From: Cryptosporangium arvum DSM 44712
Lineage (GTDB): Bacteria > Actinomycetota > Actinomycetes > Mycobacteriales > Cryptosporangiaceae
Length of the DNA: 64,000 bases
Assembly: GCF_000585375.1 (NCBI RefSeq)
Contig: NZ_KK073874.1
Location: 6,602,894 to 6,666,893, forward strand
Reading direction: 5' to 3'
The notes under the pieces: generated by a model
Databases searched by the model: none
The model's input: only the letters and a program-made list of their open reading frames with translations
What the model was told of the DNA's origin: nothing
In this document: piece after piece, positions 9,653-23,945 of the stretch
Layout of the letters: each line of letters opens with the position of its first letter
Position numbering within the stretch: position 1 is the stretch's first letter
Translations under genes and position numbers: made by a program

Positions 9653-10761
9653 GGCGCCGCACCCACGACGTACTCCCGGCGGGACGCATCGGCCGCCGCG
9701 AACGCCGTCAACTCACGGCCCTCGGCCTCGATCGCCTCCGCATCCGACGCCGACCAGGGCGCCAGCGGCCGCACGGTCAGCGTGATGCCGCCGCGCTCGC
9801 GGGTGAGCACCCAGACGCCGCGGACCTCACCGTCGATCAGGATCGTGCCCGGCAGCTGACCGTTCTTCGTGAACGTGCGCTCCCGGGCCGCCGCCGTCTC
9901 CGGCGTCTGGAAGCGGGTGCGCCGCGCGTAGGACAGGTGCAGGTTGTCGAAGTCGTAGAGGAACCGCACCGGCGCCGGGGTGTCCTCGCCGGGCCGGGGC
10001 GCGTCCGGCACGTCGAACATTTCCACCCCCTCGTCGTCGGTGTGGACGACGAGACCGGGCCGGAGCCGCTCGAAGACCTCACGCAGCCGGGTGAGCCCCG
10101 ACCAGACCTGCGCGTCCTTCACCCCGGCCGGGCCGAACGCCGCGAGGTACCGCAGCACCAGTGCGTCGGGGCTCGCGGCCGGCACCGGCGTCTCGAGCCA
10201 CGCCTCGGCGGTGGTGTGCGCGATCGGGCCGCTGATGGGCCCCGACCCGCCCCAGCTCCCGCGCGGCGGCACCTGGATCAGCGTGAGGTAGCCGCGCACC
10301 GCGTACGACAGCGCGTGCGGGTCGTGGTCCGGCCAGCGTTCGGCGAGGTGCTTCTCCAGCGCCGCGAACGTCAGCGGCTGCTCCTCGAGCAGCGTGCGGC
10401 CGAGCGCGGTGAGCTCGTCCAGGTCGACGCCCTCAAGTTTCCGCCGGTACTGGGTGAGCGACGCCCGGACGATCATCGGTTGCAGCAGCGGACGCCAGGC
10501 CAGGCAGTCCCGCGCCGACACCAGGTGAATGGTGGAGCGCTGCAGCGCCAGCCGGACGACGCGCCGCTCGGTGAGCGCGGCCGAGACCTCGAGGGCCGAG
10601 AGCCCGGCGACGCGGGCCCAGAGCCCGTAGTACCAGGAGTGCGGTGTCTGCGCCTGCAGCCCCGCGACGCGTTCGACGGCGGCGTCGACCGGGAGTTCGG
10701 CCCGTTCGAGCAGGAGCTGCCGGGCGAGCGTGGCCCGGTTGAGCGCGCGCCGCGAGATCAC
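9649..10761 (-). CDS. Winged-helix DNA-binding domain protein (AlkZ/HTH_42-like)
   Basis: A 370-residue protein of the winged helix family with crosslink-repair DNA glycosylase fold (HTH_42, formerly DUF1006). It shows the N-terminal VERVAGLQAQTPHSWYYGLW and ALQRSTIHLVSARDC motifs and the central LRYLAAFGPAGVKDAQVWSG motif. Members such as Streptomyces AlkZ excise DNA interstrand crosslinks; most homologues are uncharacterised. The GTG start overlaps the upstream VWA gene stop (GTGA), so they form a coupled operon. Its stop overlaps that of the convergent phosphoesterase gene. Confidence 0.82.
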   Translation of the reverse strand: MISRRALNRATLARQLLLERAELPVDAAVERVAGLQAQTPHSWYYGLWARVAGLSALEVSAALTERRVVRLALQRSTIHLVSARDCLAWRPLLQPMIVRASLTQYRRKLEGVDLDELTALGRTLLEEQPLTFAALEKHLAERWPDHDPHALSYAVRGYLTLIQVPPRGSWGGSGPISGPIAHTTAEAWLETPVPAASPDALVLRYLAAFGPAGVKDAQVWSGLTRLREVFERLRPGLVVHTDDEGVEMFDVPDAPRPGEDTPAPVRFLYDFDNLHLSYARRTRFQTPETAAARERTFTKNGQLPGTILIDGEVRGVWVLTRERGGITLTVRPLAPWSASDAEAIEAEGRELTAFAAADASRREYVVGAAP

Positions 10762-12572
10762 TGCGGCGCCAGCGTCGACAGGAAGATGCGGTCGATGTCG
10801 CTCCCGCTGTCGGCCCGATAGGCCTTGCCGCCGACCGCGGCGGTGATGACGCGCAACTCGTTGAGGTCGGCGTCGCTGCCGAAACCGATCGCGATGACCT
10901 GCACCGGACGGTCGGGCTTCATGACCTGGCGCAGCCGCTGCACGAGCTGCGGGCGGGTCAGGCCGCCGTTCTTCTCGTTCCGGCCGTCGGTGAGGATCAC
11001 CAGCAGGTTGAGCCGGCCGGGCTGCCAGTTCTTCTGCACGTACTGGTAGGCGGCGAGCGTCGTGTCGAACAGACCGGTGGCGCCCTTCGGGGTCAGGTCG
11101 CGGCGGATCGCGGTCTCCAGCGCCGCGCGGCGGGGCGTCTTGTCCGGCAGCGCGCCGTTGATCGGCCCGATCGGCACCAGCTGCCGGTAGTCCTTGGCCC
11201 CGTCCTGCTTGGTCGAGAACCGCCACAGGCCCACGCCCGACTCCGGGCTGAACAGCGCGATGGCCCGCAGACAGGCTTCCTGCACGACCCGGATCCGGGT
11301 CGTCCTGCCGTCCGGAGCCGGGTCGGTCATCGAACCGGACGTGTCGACCGCGGCCAGCACGTTCGACTTGCGCTGCAGCGCCGACCAGAACACGACGGTC
11401 TTGGTCATCGCCTCGTCGCTGGGCAGGCCGCGTGCGTCGTCGGAGACCGGGCCGCCCATCCCCAGCACCGGCTGCAGATCCCGGGAGTAACGGGTGGTCC
11501 GCTCCGGGTCGCGGAAGCCGGCCCGCCCGTAGGCCCGGCGCCCGGCGTCGCTCCGGAGCACCTCCAGGAAGCTGGCCGCGATCTTCTGGCGGACCGGGTC
11601 GACCCACGACGCGGCGAGCGTCACGTACGGGTAGTCGGCGAAGACCGTTCCCTCGGTCGGCTGGACCGCGGCCAGCGGCACCGCCGGGTCGGCCCGGTCG
11701 TACGCGGCGACCTGCTGCTCGGTGGCCGGGAAGAGGCCGGCCTCGGCGAGCAGCGTTCCCGGGTCGGTCGTCGCGCGCAGCCGGGCCAGGAACGCCGCCG
11801 ACGTCGGCTGGTCGAGGGTGTTGGCCCGCGAGAGCATCAGCGCGTTGTGCAGCTCCTCTTCGCTGACCTGCCCGTTCATGTCGGCGTCGACGACCGAGAG
11901 CAGGGTGCCGAGCGCGGCCGTCGACTGGCGCGGGTCACCGACGCCGAGGCGCAGCGCCCCCCACTCCGGACGGCCGAAGTCGCTCCAGGTCGCCCCGTTG
12001 ATGCGCTGCAACCCCAGTTTCGTCCAGGAGATCGGCTGCCTCGGCCAGCCGAGCGCGCTGGCCATCGGCCGCGGAGCGGCGAGAACGACCGGCGAGGACG
12101 CCACGCTCGGACGGTTGTAGGCGAACAGGCGGCTCATCCCGGGCCGGGCGGCGGCGCTGGTGATCCACGTCGAGGAGTCGGGCATCCAGACGTCGACCCG
12201 GTTCCCCACGGCCACGCCGTTCTGGCTGGGTGTCAGCGCCTGGCCGACCGCCGCGGACTCCTGGCCGCGAACCAGGATCTCCCCGCAGTGCCCGTCGAAG
12301 TTGTGGTCCTCGCGCTGCCAGGCGGAGGCCAGCCCACGTACGACGTCCTGCTGATCGGGCGAGGTCACGACCGAGAGCACCACCGGATCGCCGGTGCACT
12401 CGCCGGAGCGGCGCACGTAGGCGAACGTGAGCGCGCCGAAGACGAGGACGAGCACGATCGCCGCGGCCAGCCACGGACGTGCCCACCAGCGGCGGCCGCC
12501 CGGACGGGACGCCGCCGTGACGGACGCCTGTTGGCGGAGAACCACCGCGCTGCGGTGCCGACCACGCGCCAT
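10758..12572 (-). CDS. Membrane-anchored solute-binding/VWA protein with embedded EF-hand loop
   Basis: A 604-residue protein. Residues 1-32 are cytoplasmic and basic, 33-53 form a signal anchor, and about 60-380 resemble an extracellular solute-binding domain (VVTSPDQQDVVRGLASAW, VDVWMPDSSTWI). A von Willebrand A domain runs from about 402 to the end with an intact MIDAS: D410-T-S-G-S in AAVDTSGSM and the later VILTDGRNEKNGG. Residues 229-240 (DADMNGQVSEEE) match a canonical EF-hand calcium loop. The VWA domain probably binds a partner outside the cell in a metal-dependent way. Coupled by GTGA to the winged-helix gene. Confidence 0.82.
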   Translation of the reverse strand: MARGRHRSAVVLRQQASVTAASRPGGRRWWARPWLAAAIVLVLVFGALTFAYVRRSGECTGDPVVLSVVTSPDQQDVVRGLASAWQREDHNFDGHCGEILVRGQESAAVGQALTPSQNGVAVGNRVDVWMPDSSTWITSAAARPGMSRLFAYNRPSVASSPVVLAAPRPMASALGWPRQPISWTKLGLQRINGATWSDFGRPEWGALRLGVGDPRQSTAALGTLLSVVDADMNGQVSEEELHNALMLSRANTLDQPTSAAFLARLRATTDPGTLLAEAGLFPATEQQVAAYDRADPAVPLAAVQPTEGTVFADYPYVTLAASWVDPVRQKIAASFLEVLRSDAGRRAYGRAGFRDPERTTRYSRDLQPVLGMGGPVSDDARGLPSDEAMTKTVVFWSALQRKSNVLAAVDTSGSMTDPAPDGRTTRIRVVQEACLRAIALFSPESGVGLWRFSTKQDGAKDYRQLVPIGPINGALPDKTPRRAALETAIRRDLTPKGATGLFDTTLAAYQYVQKNWQPGRLNLLVILTDGRNEKNGGLTRPQLVQRLRQVMKPDRPVQVIAIGFGSDADLNELRVITAAVGGKAYRADSGSDIDRIFLSTLAPQ

Positions 12573-12726
12573 GAGCGGGAAGGTACCCGATCCGCTCGCA
12601 TCCGGACCAGAGGCGGACAGCTACCGAATCCCAATAGAAACAGGGGCAACTTCCTCGTCTGTAACTCCACGATCGCGACCGAGTCGGTACGCTCCGAGCG
12701 CCAACAGCGAGCTATCGGGAGCGCGG

Positions 12727-15700
12727 GTGTCGCTCGACCGCCACGACGACGCGGGCGTCCTTCTGGGGTTGGACCGCCTGCGTGCGATCGCTGCGACGCC
12801 GGACGAGGCGGACGCACCGACCCTCACCGTGCCCCGGGAACCGGTGCCGGCGCCCCGGCCCTCGCTCGAGGCGCCCACCGGTGGCGTCCCGATCGTGGAG
12901 ATCCGCGAACCCGACACGCGCGCGGCCGCCGCCGCGAAGGCCACCCAGGCCTCGGCCGGCTACGAGATCCTCGGGGAACTCGGCCGTGGGAGCCGCACGG
13001 TCGCCTACCGGGTCCGCCGGGGAGACGGCGTCTACGCGATGAAGATCGCCCGCGAGCGCCCACCCGCGGCCGCCGACCCGGACGCGGACGCGAACGACGC
13101 GGGCGAGCGGGCGTTCCGGCGCGAGGCCGCGCTGCTCGCCTGCATCGCGCATCCCGGTCTCGCACGGGTGCACGAGGTCGGCACCGCCGACGGGCGTCCC
13201 TACCTGGTCATGGACCTGGTCGAGGGCGACCGGCTGCCGCAGGTGCTCGCCGACGGCCCGCTCGACGTCGGCACGCTGCTGGCGATCGGTGTCGACGTCG
13301 CCGACGCGCTGGCCGCCGCCCACCGCGCCGGGCTGGTGCACCGTGACATCAAGCCGGAGAACATCCTGGTCCGCAACGGCGTCGGGCACGTCGCGCCGCA
13401 GGCCCGCCTGATCGACTTCGGCATGGCCTCGCGGCTGGGCGCGCCACCGGACGGCACGGTCGCGGGCACGATGCTCTACTGCGCTCCCGAGCAGTCCGGC
13501 ATGCTGCACCGGCCGGTCGACGGCCGAGCCGACCTCTACGCGCTGGGCGCCGTCCTGTTCGAGTGCGCCACCGGCGCCCCGCCGTTCGCGTCCGACGACG
13601 TCGGCGCGCTGCTGCGGATGCACGCGACGGTGCCGCCGCCGGATCCGCTGGTGACGCGCCGCGACCTGCCGTCGGCGCTCGGCGCGGTGATCCTCCGGCT
13701 GCTGGCCAAGGACCCCGACGACCGGTACCAGAGCGGCGCGGGCCTGGTCGCCGACCTGCGGCGGATCGCGTCCGGGGCGGACCGGTTCACGCTCGGCACC
13801 GACGACCAGCCGGTCGTGGTGAAGTCGGAGAGCCCGCTGGTCGGCCGCGACGCCGAGCTCGGCGCGCTGGCCGCCCGCTGGCAACGCGTCCGCGACGCCG
13901 CGACCGGCGGCAGCCGCACCCCGAACCACGACCTCCGCAGCCCCACCGCGGACCACGATTTCCGGCTCCACGCCGCGGACCAGCGGCAACGACTCCGGGA
14001 CACCGCGGCGGGCAGCCCGCAGGCGGGCGGGGCCGTGCTGGTCACCGGCCCGCCGGGCAGCGGCAAGAGCCGGATCACGGCCGAGCTCACCGGCGCGGTC
14101 ACCGCGAACCGCGGGCTGGTGCTCTCCGGCAAGTGCGACCCGGACGCCTCGCTCCCGCTCGCCCCGTTACGGGCCGCGCTCGACGACTACGTCGCCACCG
14201 TGCGCGCGCTGCCCCCGGCCCGTCGGGTCGCCGCCGCCGTCGACCTCACCGCGGCCGCGGGCCCGGCCGCCGCGCTGCTGCACGGCCTGTCCCCCGCGCT
14301 CGGGACGCTCCTCGACGCCGCTCCCCCGCTCGCCGACGAACGGGACCAGCCGCTCTCCGGAGCGGTGGCCGGGTTCCTGGCCGCGCTGGCGCGCTCGGCC
14401 GGCGGTCTGGTCCTGCACCTGGACGACCTGCACTGGATGGACGACGCGACCGGCCGGGTGCTGCGCCGGCTGGCCGACGAACTGCCGGACGCCCCCGTCC
14501 TCGTGCTGGCCACCTGCCGCGACGACCCCGGCCACGCCGCCGAGCTGGCCACCGTGCGCAACGCGCTCGGGCCCGCGCTGGACCTCACGGTCCGGCTCGA
14601 ACCGCTGGCCCCGGCGGCCATCGCCGAGCTCGTCTTCGGCATGACCAGCGGCATCCGGATCGACTCCCCCACCGCGACCGCGCTGGCCGCACGGAGCGAC
14701 GGCAACCCGTTCACGCTGCTGCAGTTCCTCACCGCGATCGTCGACGCCGGGCTGGCCCGCCCGTCCTGGGGAACCTGGCAGATCGACCCCGACCTGCTGC
14801 ACGACGTCGAGCTGCCGCTGGACGCCGTCGAGCTCGTCCTCGACCGGCTGCGCGGGCTGGACGAGGAGAGCCGGCAGCTGCTGGGCATCGCGGCGGCGCT
14901 CGGCCCGCACTTCGATCCGGGTCTGGTCGCCGAGGTCGGGCGCATCGCCCGCCGTCGCGCGATCGAGGTCGCCAGCGCGGCGGCCTGGCGGCACCTGCTG
15001 GAACGCCGCGACGGCGACAACTTCCAGTTCCTGCACGACCGCATCCGCGAGGCCCTGCTGGCCCAGTTCGACCCGGCGGCGCTGCGCGGCGTCCACGCCC
15101 GGATCGCCGATGTGCTCGCCGGTCAGGACCAGTCCGTGCCGGCCACCGTCTACGCCCGGGCGCGGCACCGTCAGCTCGCCGACGACGGCTCGCCCGACGT
15201 CGACCTCTTCGAAGCCTGTGCCGTGGCGGGCCGGCTGGCCCTCACCGAACACGCACCGGACGAGGCGGTGGGTTTTCTCGAAGCGGCCGCGTCGGCCGCG
15301 GCGCGCGCCGGTCTCATCCCCGACGCCGCGTTCCTCCTGACGCTCGGCCGCGCCCAGCACCGCACCGGTCGCTTCCGGGAGGCGCTGGGGACGCTCGAGA
15401 TCGCGCAGCGACGTGCCGCCGACCCGCTCGAGCGGGCCCGGGTGCTCGCGCTGGCCGCGCAGGTCCACGACAGCACGTGGGCCACCGATCGGCAGGTGAG
15501 CGCGGTCGACGAGGCGCTCGCGGTACTCGACCACCCGCTGCCGGAGAACCCGTTCGTGCTGGTGGCGTCGGCCGTCGGTACGGCGCTGCTGGGTTGCCTG
15601 ATGAGCGTGGTGCGGATCGGGTACGGCGGCGCGCGCGGCCGGCAACGCGAGCTGTACGGGTTGCTGACCGAGCTCTACGACATCGGGGCGCTGGCGTACG

Positions 15701-18465
15701 CCCGGCAGCTGCGTCCGACGGTCGCGCTCGCGTTCACGCTGCGCGGAGTGTTCCTCACCGCGCGGATCGGCCGGGGCCAGGAGAGCGCCCGGATGAGCGT
15801 CGCCGCCGCGCACCTGGCGTTCGTGGCCGGGCTGCGCCCGGTCGGGCGGTGGCTGACCCGGCGCGCGCACCGCACCGCCGCGTGGGTCGGTGACCCGCAG
15901 CTGATCGCGTTCGTCGATTGGCTGGAGGCGCTCGACCGCCACTTCTTCGGCCTCGACCAGGGCGAGCGGATCCGCGAGGTGCTGGCCGGGCGGGCCCGGT
16001 GGCTCGACGCCGGTCGCCGCATCGACCTGCTGTCGGTGCTGTGCTGGGACACGCTGCTGCGCGGCGACGTCACCGGCGCCGAGGACGTGTTCGCCCGGCG
16101 GCAGGCGCTCGTCGAGGCCAGCGACGGGGCCGGTGCGCTGAGCACCACCGTGCACGCGTGTCACGTCGGGTTGCTGGCGTTGCAGGGGCGCCCCGCCGAG
16201 GCCGCGGCCCAGCTCGAACGGGTCCGCGCCGGCGGTACCGGCACCCGGTGGGAACGCGTCGACGTCAGCTACGCGGCGATGCTCGCCGAGGTGGAGCAGG
16301 GCGACTGCGGTCCCGCGTTCGACCGGGCCGCCGCCGACCTCGCCGACACCGGGGTGCCGTGGTGGTGCCTGATCCCGATCCAGCGCGGGCTGTTCGTCTA
16401 CCAGGCCTACGGGCGGGTCGAGCAGCTGCGGGCGGCGCCCGACCCGGAGCGCCTCGCGCGCGCCCGGGCCGCCGTCCGGGTGCTCCGGCTGGTGGCCAAC
16501 ACCGCGCTGCTGCGCGCGCACTACCGGGTCGTGCGGGCGGCGCTGCTGCTCGCCGAGGGACGCGCCGACGGGGCGCTGCGCGCGCTCAACGCGGCCGAGC
16601 CGGCGATCCGCGCGGTCGACGCGCCGCTGGTGGCGTTCGAGGCGGCCCGGCTGCGGGCCCGGGCGTTGCGGTGGCAGGGCGTCGACGGGGAGAGCGAGCG
16701 GCAGGCCCGCTACGCGCTCACGCTCGCCGCGGGGCAGCGCTGGCCGCACCGGGCCCGGCAGGTCGCGGCCGAGTTCGACCTCGAGGACACCGGCCGGCTG
16801 AGCCTCACCCAGGCGCGGTCGAGCGAGGGCGTCGCGGTCAGCCTGTACCGGCAGCGGCTCGACGCGATCCAGCAGGTCGGGCTGGCCGCGTCGCGGGTGC
16901 TGCACCCGTCGCAGGTGGCGGCGATCGCGCTGGACGAGACGATCCGCATCCTCGGTGCCGAACGCGCGTTCCTGTTCCTGGTCGACGACGCCGGGCAGCT
17001 GCGCCCGCACGGTGGACGCGACGCCGCCGGAACCGACCTCGGCACGCTCACCGGCTACAGCGCGACGCTCGTCGAGCGGGCCTGGCAGACGCGGACCGCG
17101 CTCGTGGTCACCGGAACCGAGGAGGGCGCCGCGCTGGGCGCGGAGAGCGTCGTCCTGCACGGGCTGCGCAGCATCATGGTCGCGCCGATCCTGCTCGAAC
17201 CCCGGCTGCTCGGCGTCGTGTACCTCGACAGCCGGGTCGCGAAAGGCATCTTCACCGCCGACGACGTCGGGGTGCTGAGCGCGATCACCACCCACGTCGC
17301 GGTCGCGCTGGAGACCGCGCGGGCCGCGCAGCTGGAGGTCGCGGTCTCGGCCGCGCACCGCCAGCGCGATCTGGCCGAGACGCTGCGCGACGCGCTCGCC
17401 GCGATCACCGGCATCCTGGAGCCGACGCCGGAGCAGGTGCTGCGCCGGTTGCTGACCGTCGTGTTCGGAGTCGTCGGCGGCGACAGCGCCTGGCTGGTGC
17501 AGCCCACCGCCGCGCCGCCACTGATCTGGGTGCGCGCCGCGACGCGGACCGGACGCCACCACCGCACCGACGACCTGGCCGCGGTGTTCGCCGCCGTGGC
17601 CGACGCCGACGAGCCGGGCGCCGACGACTCGGGGCTCGGGGTGCCGACCGGTTCGCACCCGGTGGCGATGGACGCCGACGGGCGGCTCGCCCGGCTGCTC
17701 GCGGCCGACGAGCCGGTGATCAGCCGGGTGGACGCGCCCCGCCTGGTCACCGACGCGCTGCCGGACGCACGCTGCTGGCTGGCGCTGCCGTTGGTCGCCC
17801 GGGGTGAACACCTGGGCGTGCTGCTGTTCGCGACCGGCGCGGAGAACGACTACGACGACGGCGTGGCCGAGATCGCCGGTGCGCTGGTGGGCCAGGGCAT
17901 GGTGGCCTACGAGAACGCGCGGCTGTTCGCCGAGGTACGGCGGCTCGCGACGATCGACGGACTGACCGGGGTGGCCAACCGGCGGCACTTCTTCGAGCTG
18001 GCCGTGCAGGACGTCGAGGTCAGCCGCCGGGACGGTGCGGCGAGCTGGCCGGTCGCGGCGATGATGATCGACATCGACCACTTCAAGCGGGTCAACGACG
18101 AGCACGGACACCAGGTCGGCGACGAGGTGATCCAGGTCGTGGCGGCCCGGCTACGCAAGAACGGCCGTGGGCTCGGGCTGCTCGGGCGGTACGGCGGCGA
18201 GGAGTTCGTGCTGACGCTGCGCGCCGGAGCGGTGGAGGCCGCGCGGGTGGCCGACGAACTGCGTGCCGCGGTGGCCGACGAGCCGGTGCCCACCAGCGCC
18301 GGGCCGGTTCCGGTGACGATCAGCCTCGGGGTCACCTATCTGCGCGACGGCGACCTGGAGGGCGATCCCAGCGCGGACGCGCTGGTCAGCACACTGCTCC
18401 GGCGGGCGGACCGGTGCCTCTACCTGGCCAAGCACGCGGGCCGCAACCGCGTTCACGTGGGGTAG
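12727..18465 (+). CDS. Giant Ser/Thr kinase - AAA ATPase - GAF - GGDEF signalling protein
   Basis: A 1,912-residue cytoplasmic protein. Domains: Ser/Thr kinase (about 79-350; GRGSRT glycine loop, K106, VHRDIKPEN at 204-212, DFG 230-232, APEQS); AAA_16-type ATPase with Walker A GPPGSGKS (441-448) and Walker B LVLHLDDLHWMDD (near 565); a long alpha-helical TPR-like region (about 860-1350); GAF (about 1380-1540); a second GAF-like region (about 1550-1735); GGDEF (1740-1912) with DIDHFKRVNDEHG and RYGGEEF at 1821-1827. All catalytic kinase and diguanylate cyclase residues are present. The inhibitory I-site RxxD is changed to RGLG. The GTG at 12727 has GGGAG six bases upstream. It ends overlapping the convergent oxidoreductase gene by 13 bp. 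Confidence 0.9.
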   Translation: MSLDRHDDAGVLLGLDRLRAIAATPDEADAPTLTVPREPVPAPRPSLEAPTGGVPIVEIREPDTRAAAAAKATQASAGYEILGELGRGSRTVAYRVRRGDGVYAMKIARERPPAAADPDADANDAGERAFRREAALLACIAHPGLARVHEVGTADGRPYLVMDLVEGDRLPQVLADGPLDVGTLLAIGVDVADALAAAHRAGLVHRDIKPENILVRNGVGHVAPQARLIDFGMASRLGAPPDGTVAGTMLYCAPEQSGMLHRPVDGRADLYALGAVLFECATGAPPFASDDVGALLRMHATVPPPDPLVTRRDLPSALGAVILRLLAKDPDDRYQSGAGLVADLRRIASGADRFTLGTDDQPVVVKSESPLVGRDAELGALAARWQRVRDAATGGSRTPNHDLRSPTADHDFRLHAADQRQRLRDTAAGSPQAGGAVLVTGPPGSGKSRITAELTGAVTANRGLVLSGKCDPDASLPLAPLRAALDDYVATVRALPPARRVAAAVDLTAAAGPAAALLHGLSPALGTLLDAAPPLADERDQPLSGAVAGFLAALARSAGGLVLHLDDLHWMDDATGRVLRRLADELPDAPVLVLATCRDDPGHAAELATVRNALGPALDLTVRLEPLAPAAIAELVFGMTSGIRIDSPTATALAARSDGNPFTLLQFLTAIVDAGLARPSWGTWQIDPDLLHDVELPLDAVELVLDRLRGLDEESRQLLGIAAALGPHFDPGLVAEVGRIARRRAIEVASAAAWRHLLERRDGDNFQFLHDRIREALLAQFDPAALRGVHARIADVLAGQDQSVPATVYARARHRQLADDGSPDVDLFEACAVAGRLALTEHAPDEAVGFLEAAASAAARAGLIPDAAFLLTLGRAQHRTGRFREALGTLEIAQRRAADPLERARVLALAAQVHDSTWATDRQVSAVDEALAVLDHPLPENPFVLVASAVGTALLGCLMSVVRIGYGGARGRQRELYGLLTELYDIGALAYARQLRPTVALAFTLRGVFLTARIGRGQESARMSVAAAHLAFVAGLRPVGRWLTRRAHRTAAWVGDPQLIAFVDWLEALDRHFFGLDQGERIREVLAGRARWLDAGRRIDLLSVLCWDTLLRGDVTGAEDVFARRQALVEASDGAGALSTTVHACHVGLLALQGRPAEAAAQLERVRAGGTGTRWERVDVSYAAMLAEVEQGDCGPAFDRAAADLADTGVPWWCLIPIQRGLFVYQAYGRVEQLRAAPDPERLARARAAVRVLRLVANTALLRAHYRVVRAALLLAEGRADGALRALNAAEPAIRAVDAPLVAFEAARLRARALRWQGVDGESERQARYALTLAAGQRWPHRARQVAAEFDLEDTGRLSLTQARSSEGVAVSLYRQRLDAIQQVGLAASRVLHPSQVAAIALDETIRILGAERAFLFLVDDAGQLRPHGGRDAAGTDLGTLTGYSATLVERAWQTRTALVVTGTEEGAALGAESVVLHGLRSIMVAPILLEPRLLGVVYLDSRVAKGIFTADDVGVLSAITTHVAVALETARAAQLEVAVSAAHRQRDLAETLRDALAAITGILEPTPEQVLRRLLTVVFGVVGGDSAWLVQPTAAPPLIWVRAATRTGRHHRTDDLAAVFAAVADADEPGADDSGLGVPTGSHPVAMDADGRLARLLAADEPVISRVDAPRLVTDALPDARCWLALPLVARGEHLGVLLFATGAENDYDDGVAEIAGALVGQGMVAYENARLFAEVRRLATIDGLTGVANRRHFFELAVQDVEVSRRDGAASWPVAAMMIDIDHFKRVNDEHGHQVGDEVIQVVAARLRKNGRGLGLLGRYGGEEFVLTLRAGAVEAARVADELRAAVADEPVPTSAGPVPVTISLGVTYLRDGDLEGDPSADALVSTLLRRADRCLYLAKHAGRNRVHVG

Positions 18466-20660
18466 CCCACCTCCACGGTGAAGCCGTTGAGCACGGCGGT
18501 TCCGCTCAGGGCGTCCAGGTGCGTCGGGTCGGTGAGCGCGTTCGCGTTGACCCCCTCGGTCTGCGCGGCGACCCGCAGCCTCGTGCCCGGCAGGCCGTGA
18601 CCGAAGCCGTGGGGCAGGCTGACCACACCGGGCATGATCGACGCGCTCGGCTCCAGCACCGTGGTCACCGCGCCGACCCGGGAGCTCACCCGCACCGGCT
18701 GACCGGGTTCGAGGCCGAGCCGGGCGGCGTCGTCGGGATTCATCTGCAGGGTGCACCGGTTGGACCCCCCGGCCAGCCCGCTGACGTTGTGCGACCAGCT
18801 GTTGTTCGTCCGCAGGTTGCGGCGGCCGACCAGCACGAACCCGTCGCGCCGGGCGTCGAGGCCGGACCGCAGCCGCGCCACGTCGGCGACGATCGGCGCC
18901 GGCGCGAGCTCCACCCGGCCCGACGCGGTGGCCAGCACGGCGTCCAGGGCCGGCTCCAGCGGGCCCAGGTCGAGGCCGTGCGGGGCGTCCAGCAGGGCCC
19001 GCAGTGACAACCCACCGGGGCGGGCGCCGAACGCGTCGCCGAACGAGCCGAGGCGCAGCATCAGGTCGAGACGACGTTCGGTGCCGTCGGCACCGGTGAG
19101 CTCGGCGGCCAGCGCGACCGGATCACGACCGTGCACCGGGGACGAGGGGTCCGCGACCGCGCGGGCCAGCGCTCCGCCGATCAGGCCCTCGTCGAGCTGG
19201 GCCGGGTCGGCGTCGGCACCCTGGCCGGCGGCGATCAGCGCGAGCCGGGCGAGGATCTCCGACTCGTTCGGACGGTCGGCGGCGCGCTCGAGGACGGGTG
19301 GGGAGTACCGGGCGACCCGCCGCACCGCGAAGCCGAGCAGCGCGACGTCGTAGTGGCCGGACTCGAGGATGCGCGCGGGCGGGAGGACGACGTCCGCGTG
19401 GCGCGTGGTCGCGTTCAGGTACGGGTCGACGCTGACCAGGAAGTCGAGCGTCGCGATCGCCCGGTCGAGCCCCGGACCGTCGGGGGTGGACAGCACCGGG
19501 TTGCCGGCCACCGTGACCAGCGCGCGGACCTGGCCCTCGCCGGGCGTGCGGATCTCGTCGGCCAGCGTGGCCACCGGGAGCTCGCCGATCACCTCCGGCA
19601 GGTGCCGGACCCGGCTGTGCCAGCGACCGGTGCGGAACGGCTTGCGCCACCGGGTGCGCCCGTGCGGCGGCATCCCGAACATGCCTCCGCCCGGCCGGTC
19701 GAGGTTGCCGGTCAACGCGGTGACGACGTCGACGAGCCAGCTCGTCAGGGTGCCGAACTCGGCCGTGGACGTGCCGACGCGGCCGTAGACGACCGCGGTG
19801 GACGCCGCGGCGAGCTCGCGGGCGAGCGTCGCGATCTCCTCGGCCCGGACGCCGCACACCCCGGCGACCGCGGCCGGCGGGAACTCCTTCGCGAGCGCGC
19901 GGAGCTCGTCGACGCCGGCGAACCGGTCGTCGGCAGTGGTCAGCTCCTCGTCGAAGAGCGTGTGCACGATGCCGAGCAGGAGGTAGGGATCGGTGCCGGG
20001 CCGGATGAACAGGTGCCGGTCGGCGAGGGCCGCGGTGCGGGTGCGGCGGGGGTCGACGACGACGAGCCGGCCGCCGCGTGCCTTCAGTGCCTTGAGCCGG
20101 CCGGGGAAATCAGGCGCGGTGCAGAGGCTGCCGTTGGATTCCAGCGGGTTCGCGCCGAGCATCAGCAGGTAGTCGGTACGGTCGAGATCGGGCACCGGGA
20201 TCGCGGTGGGGTCACCGAACATCAGCCCGGCCGAGACGTGCTTGGGCAGCTGGTCGACGCTGGCGGCGGTGTAGACGTTCGTCGTTCCCAGCGCCTTGCG
20301 CAGCGCCGGGAGGTAGAGCTGACCGCCGAGCGTGTGCGCGCTGGGGTTGCCGACGTAGAGCGCCACGGCGTCGCGCCCGTACGCGGACGCGACCCGGCCG
20401 AGCCCCTCCTCGACGGCCGCGAACGCCTCGGCCCAGGTGGCGGGCTCCAGCACGCCGCCGCGCCGGACGAGCGGCCCGGTGAGGCGATCGGGGTCCTGGT
20501 CGAGCTCGCCGAGCGTCGCGCCCTTCGGACAGAGGAAGCCGCGGCTGAACACGTCGTCCCGATCGCCCCGGACGCGGACGACGTCCCGGCCCTCGAGCGT
20601 GATCTCGAGGCCGCAGACGGCTTCGCAGAGCGGGCAGGTGCGGTACGCCGTGCGGGTCAA
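18453..20660 (-). CDS. Molybdopterin-dependent oxidoreductase with [4Fe-4S] site
   Basis: A 735-residue member of the DMSO-reductase/formate-dehydrogenase family. The N-terminus carries the cluster motif with C9, C12, C16 and C44 (TCPLCEAVCG ... GFLCPKG); the C-terminal third is the molybdopterin-dinucleotide-binding domain. No Tat signal, so cytoplasmic. Start: TTG at 20658-20660, eight bases after GGAGG; the longer frame from 20738 would run through a hairpin. The electron partner and substrate are unknown; no accessory subunit lies nearby. It is downstream of the F420-type LLM gene on the same strand but separated from it by a terminator-like hairpin. Confidence 0.82.
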   Translation of the reverse strand: MTRTAYRTCPLCEAVCGLEITLEGRDVVRVRGDRDDVFSRGFLCPKGATLGELDQDPDRLTGPLVRRGGVLEPATWAEAFAAVEEGLGRVASAYGRDAVALYVGNPSAHTLGGQLYLPALRKALGTTNVYTAASVDQLPKHVSAGLMFGDPTAIPVPDLDRTDYLLMLGANPLESNGSLCTAPDFPGRLKALKARGGRLVVVDPRRTRTAALADRHLFIRPGTDPYLLLGIVHTLFDEELTTADDRFAGVDELRALAKEFPPAAVAGVCGVRAEEIATLARELAAASTAVVYGRVGTSTAEFGTLTSWLVDVVTALTGNLDRPGGGMFGMPPHGRTRWRKPFRTGRWHSRVRHLPEVIGELPVATLADEIRTPGEGQVRALVTVAGNPVLSTPDGPGLDRAIATLDFLVSVDPYLNATTRHADVVLPPARILESGHYDVALLGFAVRRVARYSPPVLERAADRPNESEILARLALIAAGQGADADPAQLDEGLIGGALARAVADPSSPVHGRDPVALAAELTGADGTERRLDLMLRLGSFGDAFGARPGGLSLRALLDAPHGLDLGPLEPALDAVLATASGRVELAPAPIVADVARLRSGLDARRDGFVLVGRRNLRTNNSWSHNVSGLAGGSNRCTLQMNPDDAARLGLEPGQPVRVSSRVGAVTTVLEPSASIMPGVVSLPHGFGHGLPGTRLRVAAQTEGVNANALTDPTHLDALSGTAVLNGFTVEVGYPT

Positions 20661-20706
20661 GTCGACCACCTCCGGACCACAGTCTGGACCGACCCACCGA
20701 CAAAAT

Positions 20707-20731
20707 CGCCGGTGTTCGGCGAACACCGGCG
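20707..20731 (-). terminator. Intrinsic-terminator-like hairpin between two minus-strand genes
   Basis: A perfect dyad with 12-bp arms, CGCCGGTGTTCG and CGAACACCGGCG, one base apart. On the minus strand it is followed by ATTTTG, giving a short U-tract. It lies 20 bp after the LLM gene stop and 46 bp before the TTG start of the oxidoreductase. It could instead be an operator for the oxidoreductase. Confidence 0.6.
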
Positions 20732-20751
20732 ACTTCACCGATCCACCGGCG

Positions 20752-21659: not shown

Positions 21660-23945
21660 TCAGAGCACGGACACCAGCGGGAACGTGGTCGCGGGAGGCC
21701 TCGGGCCGCCGGGCTGGGGTTTGCCGAACAACCACCCCTGCAGACGGTCGGCGCCCGCGGCCACCAGCGCCTGCGACTGTTCCTGGGTCTCCACGCCCTC
21801 GGCGACGACCTCCAGCCCCAGCGTGTGCGCGAGGTCGATGCAGGCGCGGGCGATCGCGGCCGCGGCCGGGTCGTCGAGCTTCGCGGTCAGCGACCGGTCG
21901 AGCTTGAGTTCGGTGGCCGGCAGCCGCTGCAGGTACGACAGCGCCGAATAGCCGGTGCCGAAGTCGTCGATCGCGACGCCGACGCCGGCCCGGCGCAGCG
22001 CCGCGAGGACGTCCCGGCCGGTGTCCAGGTCGCCGATCGCGACCTGCTCGGTGATCTCCACGGTCAGCGCGGAGGGTGGCAGGCCCCGCCTGGACAGTCC
22101 GTCCAGGATCTCCTCGACGAGGGCCGGGTGGAGCAGGTCGGAGGCGGCGAGGTTCACCGAGACCTGCACGGTCGAACCCGCCCGCCACCACCGGGCGGCC
22201 TGGTTCAGCGCCAGGTCTATGACCCGCCGGGTGAGGAACGGCGTCAGCCCGGTGCGCTCGGCGAGCCCGAGGAACTGGTCCGGCGCGATCGTCCCGTGCA
22301 GCGGGTGATGCCAGCGCACCAACGCCTCCACGCGGGGCGGCGCGGTCACGTCGGTGGCCACCAGCGCCTGGTAGTGCAGCTCGAGCGCTCCGTGCGGCGC
22401 CACCCCGGACGTCGTGCCGGTCAGCATCGCCCGCAGCTCGGACGCCCGCTCCAGCGAGTCGCGCTGCCGGTCGGGGCCGAGCGAGTCGTAGCGCACCCAG
22501 CCGCGCCGCTCGGTCTTCGCGCGGTACATCGCGGTGTCCGCGCAGCGCAGCAGCTCGAGCGTGCGCTCGCCGACGGTGCGGCCGACCGGCGCGTCCCCCT
22601 CGACCGCGATGCCGATGCTGACGTCGGTCGGCACCACGATGCCGCCGACCGGGAGCGGGCTGCGCACCGCGGCCAGCAGACTCTCGGCGAGCTGCTCGAC
22701 CGCACCGTGCGCGGTGAGCACGGCGAACTCGTCGCCCCCGAGGCGCGCCAGCAGGTCGTCCGACTCGAGCGCGCCGGCCAGCCGGGGGGCGAGCGCCGCC
22801 AGGAGCTGGTCGCCGACCTGGTGCCCGAGGCCGTCGTTGACCTCCTTGAACCGGTCGAGGTCCAGCAGCAGGATCGCGTGCGTGCGACGGGTGTCAGCGG
22901 CCAGCGCCTCCTCGACGCCGCGGAGGAACCCGCGCCGGTTGTAGAGACCGGTGAGCTCGTCGGTGATCGCCAGCCGGTGCTGTTCGCCCGCGTCGAGCAG
23001 CGCGCGGACGCCGAAACCGACGCGCGCCAGCGCCGCCAGCACGCAGAAGGCCGCCAGTATTTCGGCCACCGGCGGCTGCTCGGTGAGCGCGCCGACGACG
23101 AGCACGATCACCGCCGACCCGGCGCACAGCAGCGGAGCGAGCAGTGTCCGCAGGTCGATCGGGCGGTCGGCCATCCGCCGGGAGCGCTGCCAGGCCGACG
23201 CCGCGAGCAGCAGGCCGATCACGCCGGCGAGCTGGTCCACCCGCTCGACGTCCGCACCCCCGTCCGCGAGCACGCGGCTGACCAGGCCGTTGGCGACGGC
23301 GAACACGAGAACGGTCGCCGAGAGCAGCCGCCAGCGGTTGTCCAGGCGCCAGCCGGCCAGCGCCGCGATCGAACCGATCATCCCGACCAGCACCATGGTC
23401 AGCGCCGGGTACCCGAGCGTCACGATCGCGTCCAGCGGCGACACGCCGGTCCAGTTCAGCACCGAGCGGCCGAGCACCAGCGCCATCACGGCCGCACCCA
23501 GCGTCCCCGCGACGACGGCGTCCCAGACCCGGACCGCCCCGACGCCACCGACGAGCGGCCGGGACAGCAGCCAGACGGCGAGGCCCAGCAGCGGTAGCGG
23601 GGGCAGCCAGAACGCGTCGGCGAGCGAGAACGACGGGAGCGGGTCACCGGAGGAGAGAAGCCGGTCCCAGACGACGTACCCGGCCCCGTTGAAGGCCGCG
23701 ACCGCGGCGATCAGCGCCCAGGCCACGCGCTGGGACGGCATCAGGACGCAGCGCAGGCCGACCAGAACGGCGCTGGTCAGCAGGATGATCTCGATCAGGG
23801 CCCAGGACGACCAGAGGTGCAGGGGCGAGCGCTCGCCGTGCCCCGTCCAGACCCAGCCGAGGTGGACGACGAGCGCGGTGCCGAGCAGCGCGCAGACCCA
23901 GCGGACGGCCCGGGCGACGACTACCGCCCCGGGGCGCTCGGCCAT
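21660..23945 (-). CDS. Membrane-bound GGDEF-EAL c-di-GMP protein
   Basis: A 761-residue protein. The first 320 residues contain about nine hydrophobic segments, forming an integral-membrane sensor. Next is GGDEF (about 330-490) with LDLDRFKEVNDGLGHQ and an intact GGDEF near residue 402, then EAL (about 505-750) with VEALVRWHHP, VSVNLAASDL, VEITEQV, DDFGTGYS, ELKLDRSL, AEGVETQEQ and QGWLFGKP. Both cyclase and phosphodiesterase active sites look complete, so net activity must be set by the sensor. The I-site arginine is replaced (ESDD). GGAGGAG lies seven bases before the ATG. Similar actinomycete proteins (CdgB/RmdB-type) affect development. Confidence 0.9.
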   Translation of the reverse strand: MAERPGAVVVARAVRWVCALLGTALVVHLGWVWTGHGERSPLHLWSSWALIEIILLTSAVLVGLRCVLMPSQRVAWALIAAVAAFNGAGYVVWDRLLSSGDPLPSFSLADAFWLPPLPLLGLAVWLLSRPLVGGVGAVRVWDAVVAGTLGAAVMALVLGRSVLNWTGVSPLDAIVTLGYPALTMVLVGMIGSIAALAGWRLDNRWRLLSATVLVFAVANGLVSRVLADGGADVERVDQLAGVIGLLLAASAWQRSRRMADRPIDLRTLLAPLLCAGSAVIVLVVGALTEQPPVAEILAAFCVLAALARVGFGVRALLDAGEQHRLAITDELTGLYNRRGFLRGVEEALAADTRRTHAILLLDLDRFKEVNDGLGHQVGDQLLAALAPRLAGALESDDLLARLGGDEFAVLTAHGAVEQLAESLLAAVRSPLPVGGIVVPTDVSIGIAVEGDAPVGRTVGERTLELLRCADTAMYRAKTERRGWVRYDSLGPDRQRDSLERASELRAMLTGTTSGVAPHGALELHYQALVATDVTAPPRVEALVRWHHPLHGTIAPDQFLGLAERTGLTPFLTRRVIDLALNQAARWWRAGSTVQVSVNLAASDLLHPALVEEILDGLSRRGLPPSALTVEITEQVAIGDLDTGRDVLAALRRAGVGVAIDDFGTGYSALSYLQRLPATELKLDRSLTAKLDDPAAAAIARACIDLAHTLGLEVVAEGVETQEQSQALVAAGADRLQGWLFGKPQPGGPRPPATTFPLVSVL

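Follow-up and report, generated by a model that had tools for sequence, protein, structure and literature searches.

A single gene of Cryptosporangium arvum DSM 44712 encodes a protein in which a Ser/Thr protein kinase, an AAA_16 ATPase, a TPR superhelix, a GAF domain, a probable second GAF domain and a GGDEF domain follow one another in one chain. The gene lies on the forward strand at positions 12727-18465 of the window, the 64,000-nucleotide stretch of DNA analyzed here, and all features of the protein are given below in the coordinates of that stretch and strand. We read the product as a multidomain diguanylate cyclase whose output would be gated by the kinase and a STAND-type ATPase of the same chain, with a probability of roughly 0.55. 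The preliminary description of this DNA had reported one polypeptide joining a Ser/Thr kinase, an AAA ATPase, GAF and GGDEF; Pfam recovers all four, each above its curated cut-off. The TPR part and the second GAF domain were absent from its domain list. What it presented as a single unusual protein is in fact one member of a conserved family, and its own genome encodes a paralogue.

The gene occupies one open frame in the ORF listing and comprises 1912 codons and a stop codon. The longest listed ORF of the same frame opens at 12427, with its stop codon ending at 18465. In the alignment with the three orthologues from the genus, the sequence SLDRHDDAGVLLGL, or a near match to it, begins at the level of GTG 12727 in all three, and the window sequence 5' of this codon has no counterpart in them. 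Because the orthologues agree from this point and the upstream sequence is not shared, translation of the kinase-cyclase gene likely begins at this GTG. A scan of positions 12400-12900 for promoters and terminators found none. Pfam places Pkinase at residues 79-334 (12961-13728; PF00069, E 1.3e-32), AAA_16 at residues 420-594 (13984-14508; PF13191, E 6.1e-22), GAF_2 at residues 1394-1529 (16906-17313; E 4.6e-15, with two stretches counted) and GGDEF at residues 1741-1908 (17947-18450; PF00990, E 1.2e-33). Among the 25 NCBIfam matches listed of a total of 35, the general GGDEF domain model scores above its cut-off and the equivalog models fall far below theirs.

The region between the ATPase and the first GAF domain (residues 621-1380, 14587-16866) was assigned from its predicted structure. 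An AlphaFold model of residues 395-1395 (mean pLDDT 86.6) displays the ATPase core, additional helices along with two short strand pairs, and an extended series of helix pairs; the element order in this model would fit a winged-helix-like part at the start of the middle region. Consensus TPR proteins are matched weakly by a profile of the middle part, with a best E of 1.4e-6. In a Foldseek search with the ATPase-TPR model the STAND-TPR protein 6mfv comes first (E 2.1e-10, with a TM-score by query length of 0.23), large helical-repeat proteins of unrelated kinds fill rows 2-6, and row 7 is a maltose-system regulator (8bob). The protein combines Walker A and B motifs in an AAA_16-type domain with a repeat superhelix behind it, as looked for in a STAND ATPase by sequence and model, and the STAND-like character proposed in the preliminary description fits the leading fold match, though at a low TM-score. 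Within the TPR part, residues 944-962 (15556-15612) form a 19-residue stretch with a mean Kyte-Doolittle hydropathy of 2.26, which passes the usual threshold for a membrane helix. It is modelled as a TPR helix, and the strongest hydrophobic stretch sits at a like place in some relatives but not all. A membrane or partner contact at this point is possible, so that the protein may be either soluble or membrane-attached.

The C-terminal model (residues 1380-1912; mean pLDDT 81.3, pTM 0.51) consists of the GAF domain, a 51-residue helix, a second GAF-like domain, a 32-residue helix and the GGDEF domain. The second GAF-like domain, at approximately residues 1568-1703 (17428-17835), for which Pfam counts a second GAF stretch, has a middle of low confidence (pLDDT below 50 at approximately residues 1605-1643); it is a probable, divergent member of the fold. 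The helix that follows (approximately residues 1711-1742, 17857-17952) is unbroken in the model and is a candidate signalling helix between GAF 2 and GGDEF. In Foldseek, the first five rows for this model are structures of the Idiomarina bacteriophytochrome-activated diguanylate cyclase (5llw, 6et7, 5llx), with TM-scores of 0.42-0.48 by query length. Since the TM-scores are low and the full-length matches of both the C-terminal and the ATPase-TPR models have rmsd values near 19-22 Å, the structural likeness is one of domain order and local folds.

Alignment of the family shows the active-site motifs in place at both ends of the protein and in the ATPase between them, as the preliminary description had stated: K106 (13042-13044), E133, HRDIKPEN (residues 205-212, 13339-13362) and DFG (residues 230-232, 13414-13422) in the kinase, Walker A GPPGSGKS (residues 441-448, 14047-14070) with K447, Walker B LVLHLDD (residues 561-567, 14407-14427) with D566 and D567, and RYGGEEF (residues 1821-1827, 18187-18207) in the GGDEF domain. 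The window kinase has the sequence features of a Hanks-type kinase, namely the VAIK lysine, the HRD aspartate and DFG. K106, which had been singled out for mutation, is the right residue, being the ATP-binding lysine and a lysine in 28 of the 29 family rows that cover the position. The window GGDEF domain likewise has the signature, the metal-binding aspartate and the substrate residues that define a diguanylate cyclase in sequence, and a profile of the family GGDEF domains recovers PleD along with further GGDEF domains of solved structure.

Across the family, the two ends of the protein differ in how strictly they are kept. The GGDEF catalytic positions examined (signature, metal-binding Asp and substrate residues) are invariant in 30/30 rows; within the signature the arginine, both glycines, both glutamates and the phenylalanine never change and the tyrosine varies. 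The HRD aspartate, the asparagine and DFG are invariant in all 29 kinase rows. The ATP lysine is replaced by arginine in one of these 29 rows, the alpha-C glutamate by glutamine in three and the catalytic-loop lysine by threonine in two (leaving Lys in 27/29), with kinase variants in relatives L029-L032 and L067, and HRD reads HQD in 11/29. The Walker A lysine is kept in 27/29 rows and is arginine in two members of one genus (L054:4607-10042 and L055:4467-9902, both on the minus strand); these two keep their kinase and GGDEF motifs intact. In Walker B the first aspartate is found in 26/30 rows, with glutamate in the other four, and the second in 30/30. These kinase variants, the HQD form and the Walker A arginine indicate that kinase and ATPase chemistry need not be essential throughout the family, and the kinase and ATPase possibly act by binding alone in a few lineages. 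Because the GGDEF residues are complete in every row while kinase residues are sometimes lost, we infer that c-di-GMP synthesis would be the fixed output of the family, with the kinase as its input or regulator and the ATPase in a regulatory role as well.

Both enzyme domains are under purifying selection. In comparisons with the three orthologues, the kinase has a dN/dS of 0.16-0.26 and the GGDEF domain one of 0.18-0.21; the values are 0.17-0.32 for the ATPase, 0.29-0.36 for the TPR part, 0.12-0.27 for GAF 1, 0.18-0.45 for GAF 2 and 0.30-0.43 for the first 75 residues. As the linker reaches 0.68-0.73, the low values in both enzyme domains argue that the combination of kinase and GGDEF is not a product of chance.

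The family is uncommon within its class but recurs in several actinomycete families. The C. arvum genome (9.2 Mb, one contig) carries a paralogue of 1815 residues, L009, with the identical domain order. Orthologues are present in all three other genomes of the genus sampled, at 79-81% identity over the middle region, and each of these genomes carries the second paralogue too. In a sample of 61 genomes, one genome of another genus of the same family has a relative at ~40%, and 56 genomes of other families of the same order yielded no relative at E 1e-40. In a larger sample of the order the family was found in 5/298 genomes (own included) and 2/76 genera, all of one family; in the class it was found in 14/394 genomes (own included) and 5/138 genera, from three families. 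The genome searches centred on Actinomycetota, and these figures refer to this phylum. A scan of named genomes, carried out with two peptide patterns from the middle region of the family, returned 41 matched stretches and, out of these, eight loci, all actinomycete: Couchioplanes caeruleus, Pseudosporangium ferrugineum, Amorphoplanes nipponensis, Actinoplanes sp. TFC3, Spirilliplanes yamanashiensis (two copies) and two MAGs. The same domain order, had it arisen independently outside Actinomycetota, would escape patterns drawn from the middle region. Plasmids searched with the window protein gave no match at E 1e-40, and in a near DNA search of plasmids the sole likeness was a 42-base stretch of GGDEF with 93-95% identity in eight Rhizobium records. 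The preliminary description had named a widespread and already described domain order as the finding that would count against its claim; the order does recur in several actinomycete families, yet in only 14/394 genomes of the class, and no description of it was found among the open-licence papers returned by our queries.

In total, 31 distinct family sequences were read, and the 28 that are complete in one frame all have a kinase at the front and a GGDEF domain at the end. Of these 28, 18 were assigned by domain search, L025 through its duplicate L033, L009 by Pfam and the rest by alignment and motifs, with five relatives also checked by Pfam. L033 was left out as a duplicate of the L025 contig (same length, same ORF coordinates). 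L064, L066 and L068 run into contig ends and do not count among the complete members; the last two come from separate contigs of one genome and possibly represent one gene. All 30 members that reach far enough have the GGDEF domain, and the kinase is found in 29/29. A single-sequence search missed the ATPase of L065 and L067, in which the Walker motifs are visible in the alignment.

The history of the GGDEF domain and of its partners in the chain points to one event. In an unrooted tree of 73 GGDEF rows, a branch with SH-aLRT support of 90 (under the 95 mark) separates the 30 family domains from 42 other GGDEF rows of the C. arvum genome; these 42 are part of the genome's matches, and at least one domain was entered twice (overlapping L078 and L091). 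The 29 family kinase domains also group together (SH-aLRT 92) in a comparison with only six other kinases that carries a long-branch warning. Over 28 members, the pairwise distances of kinase, ATPase, TPR, GAF 1, GAF 2 and GGDEF correlate at 0.88-0.97. Shared descent yields values of this kind; had lineages often exchanged whole domains, lower correlations would be expected. Since the family GGDEF domains group apart and the domain distances are so closely correlated, the family probably derives from a single fusion passed on as one unit.

The genome encodes a third protein, L010 (6646-11340, minus strand; 1564 residues), with a kinase-like domain, AAA_16, GAF and GGDEF in the same order; it was counted separately from the family. 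Its kinase is eroded, with DFD for DFG and HKD for HRD, and its alignment lacks the ATP lysine and the alpha-C glutamate, though the front lobe aligns poorly. A search of 246 genomes of the phylum at E 1e-50 returned no match to it beyond its own genome. Because its kinase is eroded, its GGDEF domain falls outside the family group and the other genomes searched gave no match, L010 is probably a separate fusion that arrived independently at the same domain order. A plasmid search with L010 returned 1108 records, but in none of them did a single place cover 80% of the protein, and the best 30 of these 1108 matches end at about residue 1385-1420, short of GGDEF.

The kinase-cyclase gene is flanked upstream by a divergent gene (10758-12572, minus strand) whose predicted product joins a solute-binding domain to a VWA domain, and downstream by a convergent molybdopterin oxidoreductase gene (18453-20738, minus strand) whose end overlaps its own by 13 bases. 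Gene order is kept within the genus, upstream in 3/3 loci and downstream in both loci that are testable, as L024 ends at a contig end. The solute-binding/VWA gene is retained beside the kinase-cyclase gene in all three orthologous loci. Across the 18 loci compared, which do not extend to L056-L068, the setting is not kept outside the genus and no neighbor there supports a role. Some 3 kb farther downstream, a GGDEF-EAL gene (21660-23945, minus strand) was considered as a conserved partner. This candidate was rejected, as the GGDEF-EAL genes beside L054 and L055 are not orthologous to it; among the GGDEF loci of the C. arvum genome that were compared, the window's GGDEF-EAL gene is their 23rd (L054) and 18th (L055) match. 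The genome as a whole has a large c-di-GMP repertoire, which speaks for the cyclase reading: it contains 57 GGDEF matches (with the L009 domain counted twice), 31 EAL matches and two PilZ matches; with so few PilZ matches, most of its c-di-GMP receptors are probably of other kinds.

Taken together, these observations are compatible with a mechanism in which binding of a ligand or partner at the TPR superhelix, the GAF domains or both would switch the ATPase to an ATP-bound, oligomeric form. Oligomerization would bring the kinase domains together for trans-autophosphorylation, and would bring the GGDEF domains into the dimer in which two GTP could be condensed into c-di-GMP, with the signal travelling along the rod formed by GAF, helix, GAF and helix. 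The substrate of the kinase might lie within the same chain or in other proteins. More tentatively, at somewhat less than even odds, we propose that the proteins constitute an undescribed, vertically kept actinomycete family whose Ser/Thr kinase domain uses a STAND ATPase switch to control the synthesis of c-di-GMP in cis. Development in actinomycetes is steered both by Ser/Thr kinases and by c-di-GMP, two systems that have mostly been studied apart. The window protein may link the two networks and, if so, would couple Ser/Thr phosphorylation directly to c-di-GMP. With both systems in one chain, the question of cross-talk can be tested directly in one protein, and the natural variants in the kinase, the ATPase and the product-inhibition site provide ready-made comparisons among relatives.

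The same layout could serve two outputs from one sensor, the ATPase, TPR and GAF parts switching on both a kinase with outside substrates and the GGDEF domain, neither of which would control the other. The complete kinase motifs of the window protein and most relatives agree with such an arrangement, as do two kinase-AAA-GAF proteins from elsewhere that also have two catalytic ends, Pkinase and HisKA/HATPase_c. The persistence of an intact GGDEF domain in lineages with altered kinase residues fits a regulator better than an obligate second output, and we regard independent outputs as unlikely, at perhaps one chance in four. Rather less probable is an inverted scheme in which the GGDEF domain is a receptor for c-di-GMP or GTP and controls the kinase, the latter being the output. 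GGDEF domains can serve as receptors, and 18 of the 30 family rows carry the RxxD motif of the inhibitory site; every catalytic position examined is nevertheless kept in 30/30. The window protein and its three orthologues lack RxxD, and the RGLG found in its place (18166-18177) makes the window protein badly suited as an I-site receptor.

A role in anti-phage defence, in which a STAND-type protein would raise c-di-GMP or phosphorylation as an alarm, is suggested by the STAND-TPR layout and by matches to PADLOC kinase models. Among the 25 PADLOC families listed of 33, the best stretches lie in the kinase domain and a few continue into the linker or the ATPase, a pattern that any kinase of this type should give, and neither the synteny within the genus nor the congruent domain histories suggest a mobile defence gene. 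We consider this role very improbable. A diguanylate cyclase gated in cis by the kinase and ATPase is the reading that we retain.

Several known systems share part of this architecture. The TOMM system kinase/cyclase fusion TIGR03903, like the window protein, has a kinase and a nucleotide cyclase in one chain and is the best NCBIfam match by E-value (3.2e-56, with the kinase as best stretch). Membership was rejected at 190.9 bits against a cut-off of 705.75, and its cyclase is presumably of class III, not GGDEF. PknK-type kinases, which we take to have a kinase-ATPase-TPR layout and whose name is borne by one plasmid relative of L010, would resemble the front part of the window protein, with a kinase followed by an ATPase and a TPR-like region; we know of none with a GAF domain or a nucleotide cyclase. 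At the other end, the bacteriophytochrome cyclase 5llw has the tandem sensor domains, long helix and GGDEF of the C-terminal part, presumably without a kinase, ATPase or TPR part. The STAND proteins 6mfv and 8bob, the latter of which we take to be MalT, share the order of ATPase and TPR superhelix (TM-scores 0.23 and 0.17 by query length) and presumably have neither kinase nor GGDEF.

In the parts of the literature consulted, 'monster multidomain proteins' include a hybrid kinase of histidine and Ser/Thr type and a protein that joins a histidine kinase to GGDEF, and the passages concerned contain no Ser/Thr kinase-GGDEF protein (PMC1183210); in passages of a further source, GGDEF and kinase domains also occur among the effector parts of other systems (PMC7159879). 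Descriptions of the kinase-GGDEF order were not found in the open-licence text returned by our queries, several of which were probably too narrow. Close counterparts are the kinase-AAA_16-GAF-histidine kinase proteins of cyanobacteria and rhizobia, for which one listed plasmid match of L010 bears the name 'multi-sensor hybrid multi-kinase'. They have the same front of Ser/Thr kinase, AAA_16, long middle and GAF, but end in PAS, HisKA or HisKA_3 and HATPase_c where the window family has GAF-GAF-GGDEF. Pfam accordingly lists GGDEF at the end of the window protein and no HATPase_c, which sets it apart from the multi-kinases. The preliminary description had held a histidine-kinase ending to be usual for such proteins, and this is borne out by the two relatives examined, on plasmids of Rhizobium (L110) and Nostoc (L111). 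On the best reading of these sequences, the window protein would be built on a chassis that carries a histidine kinase at its end in other proteins and here bears a GGDEF domain.
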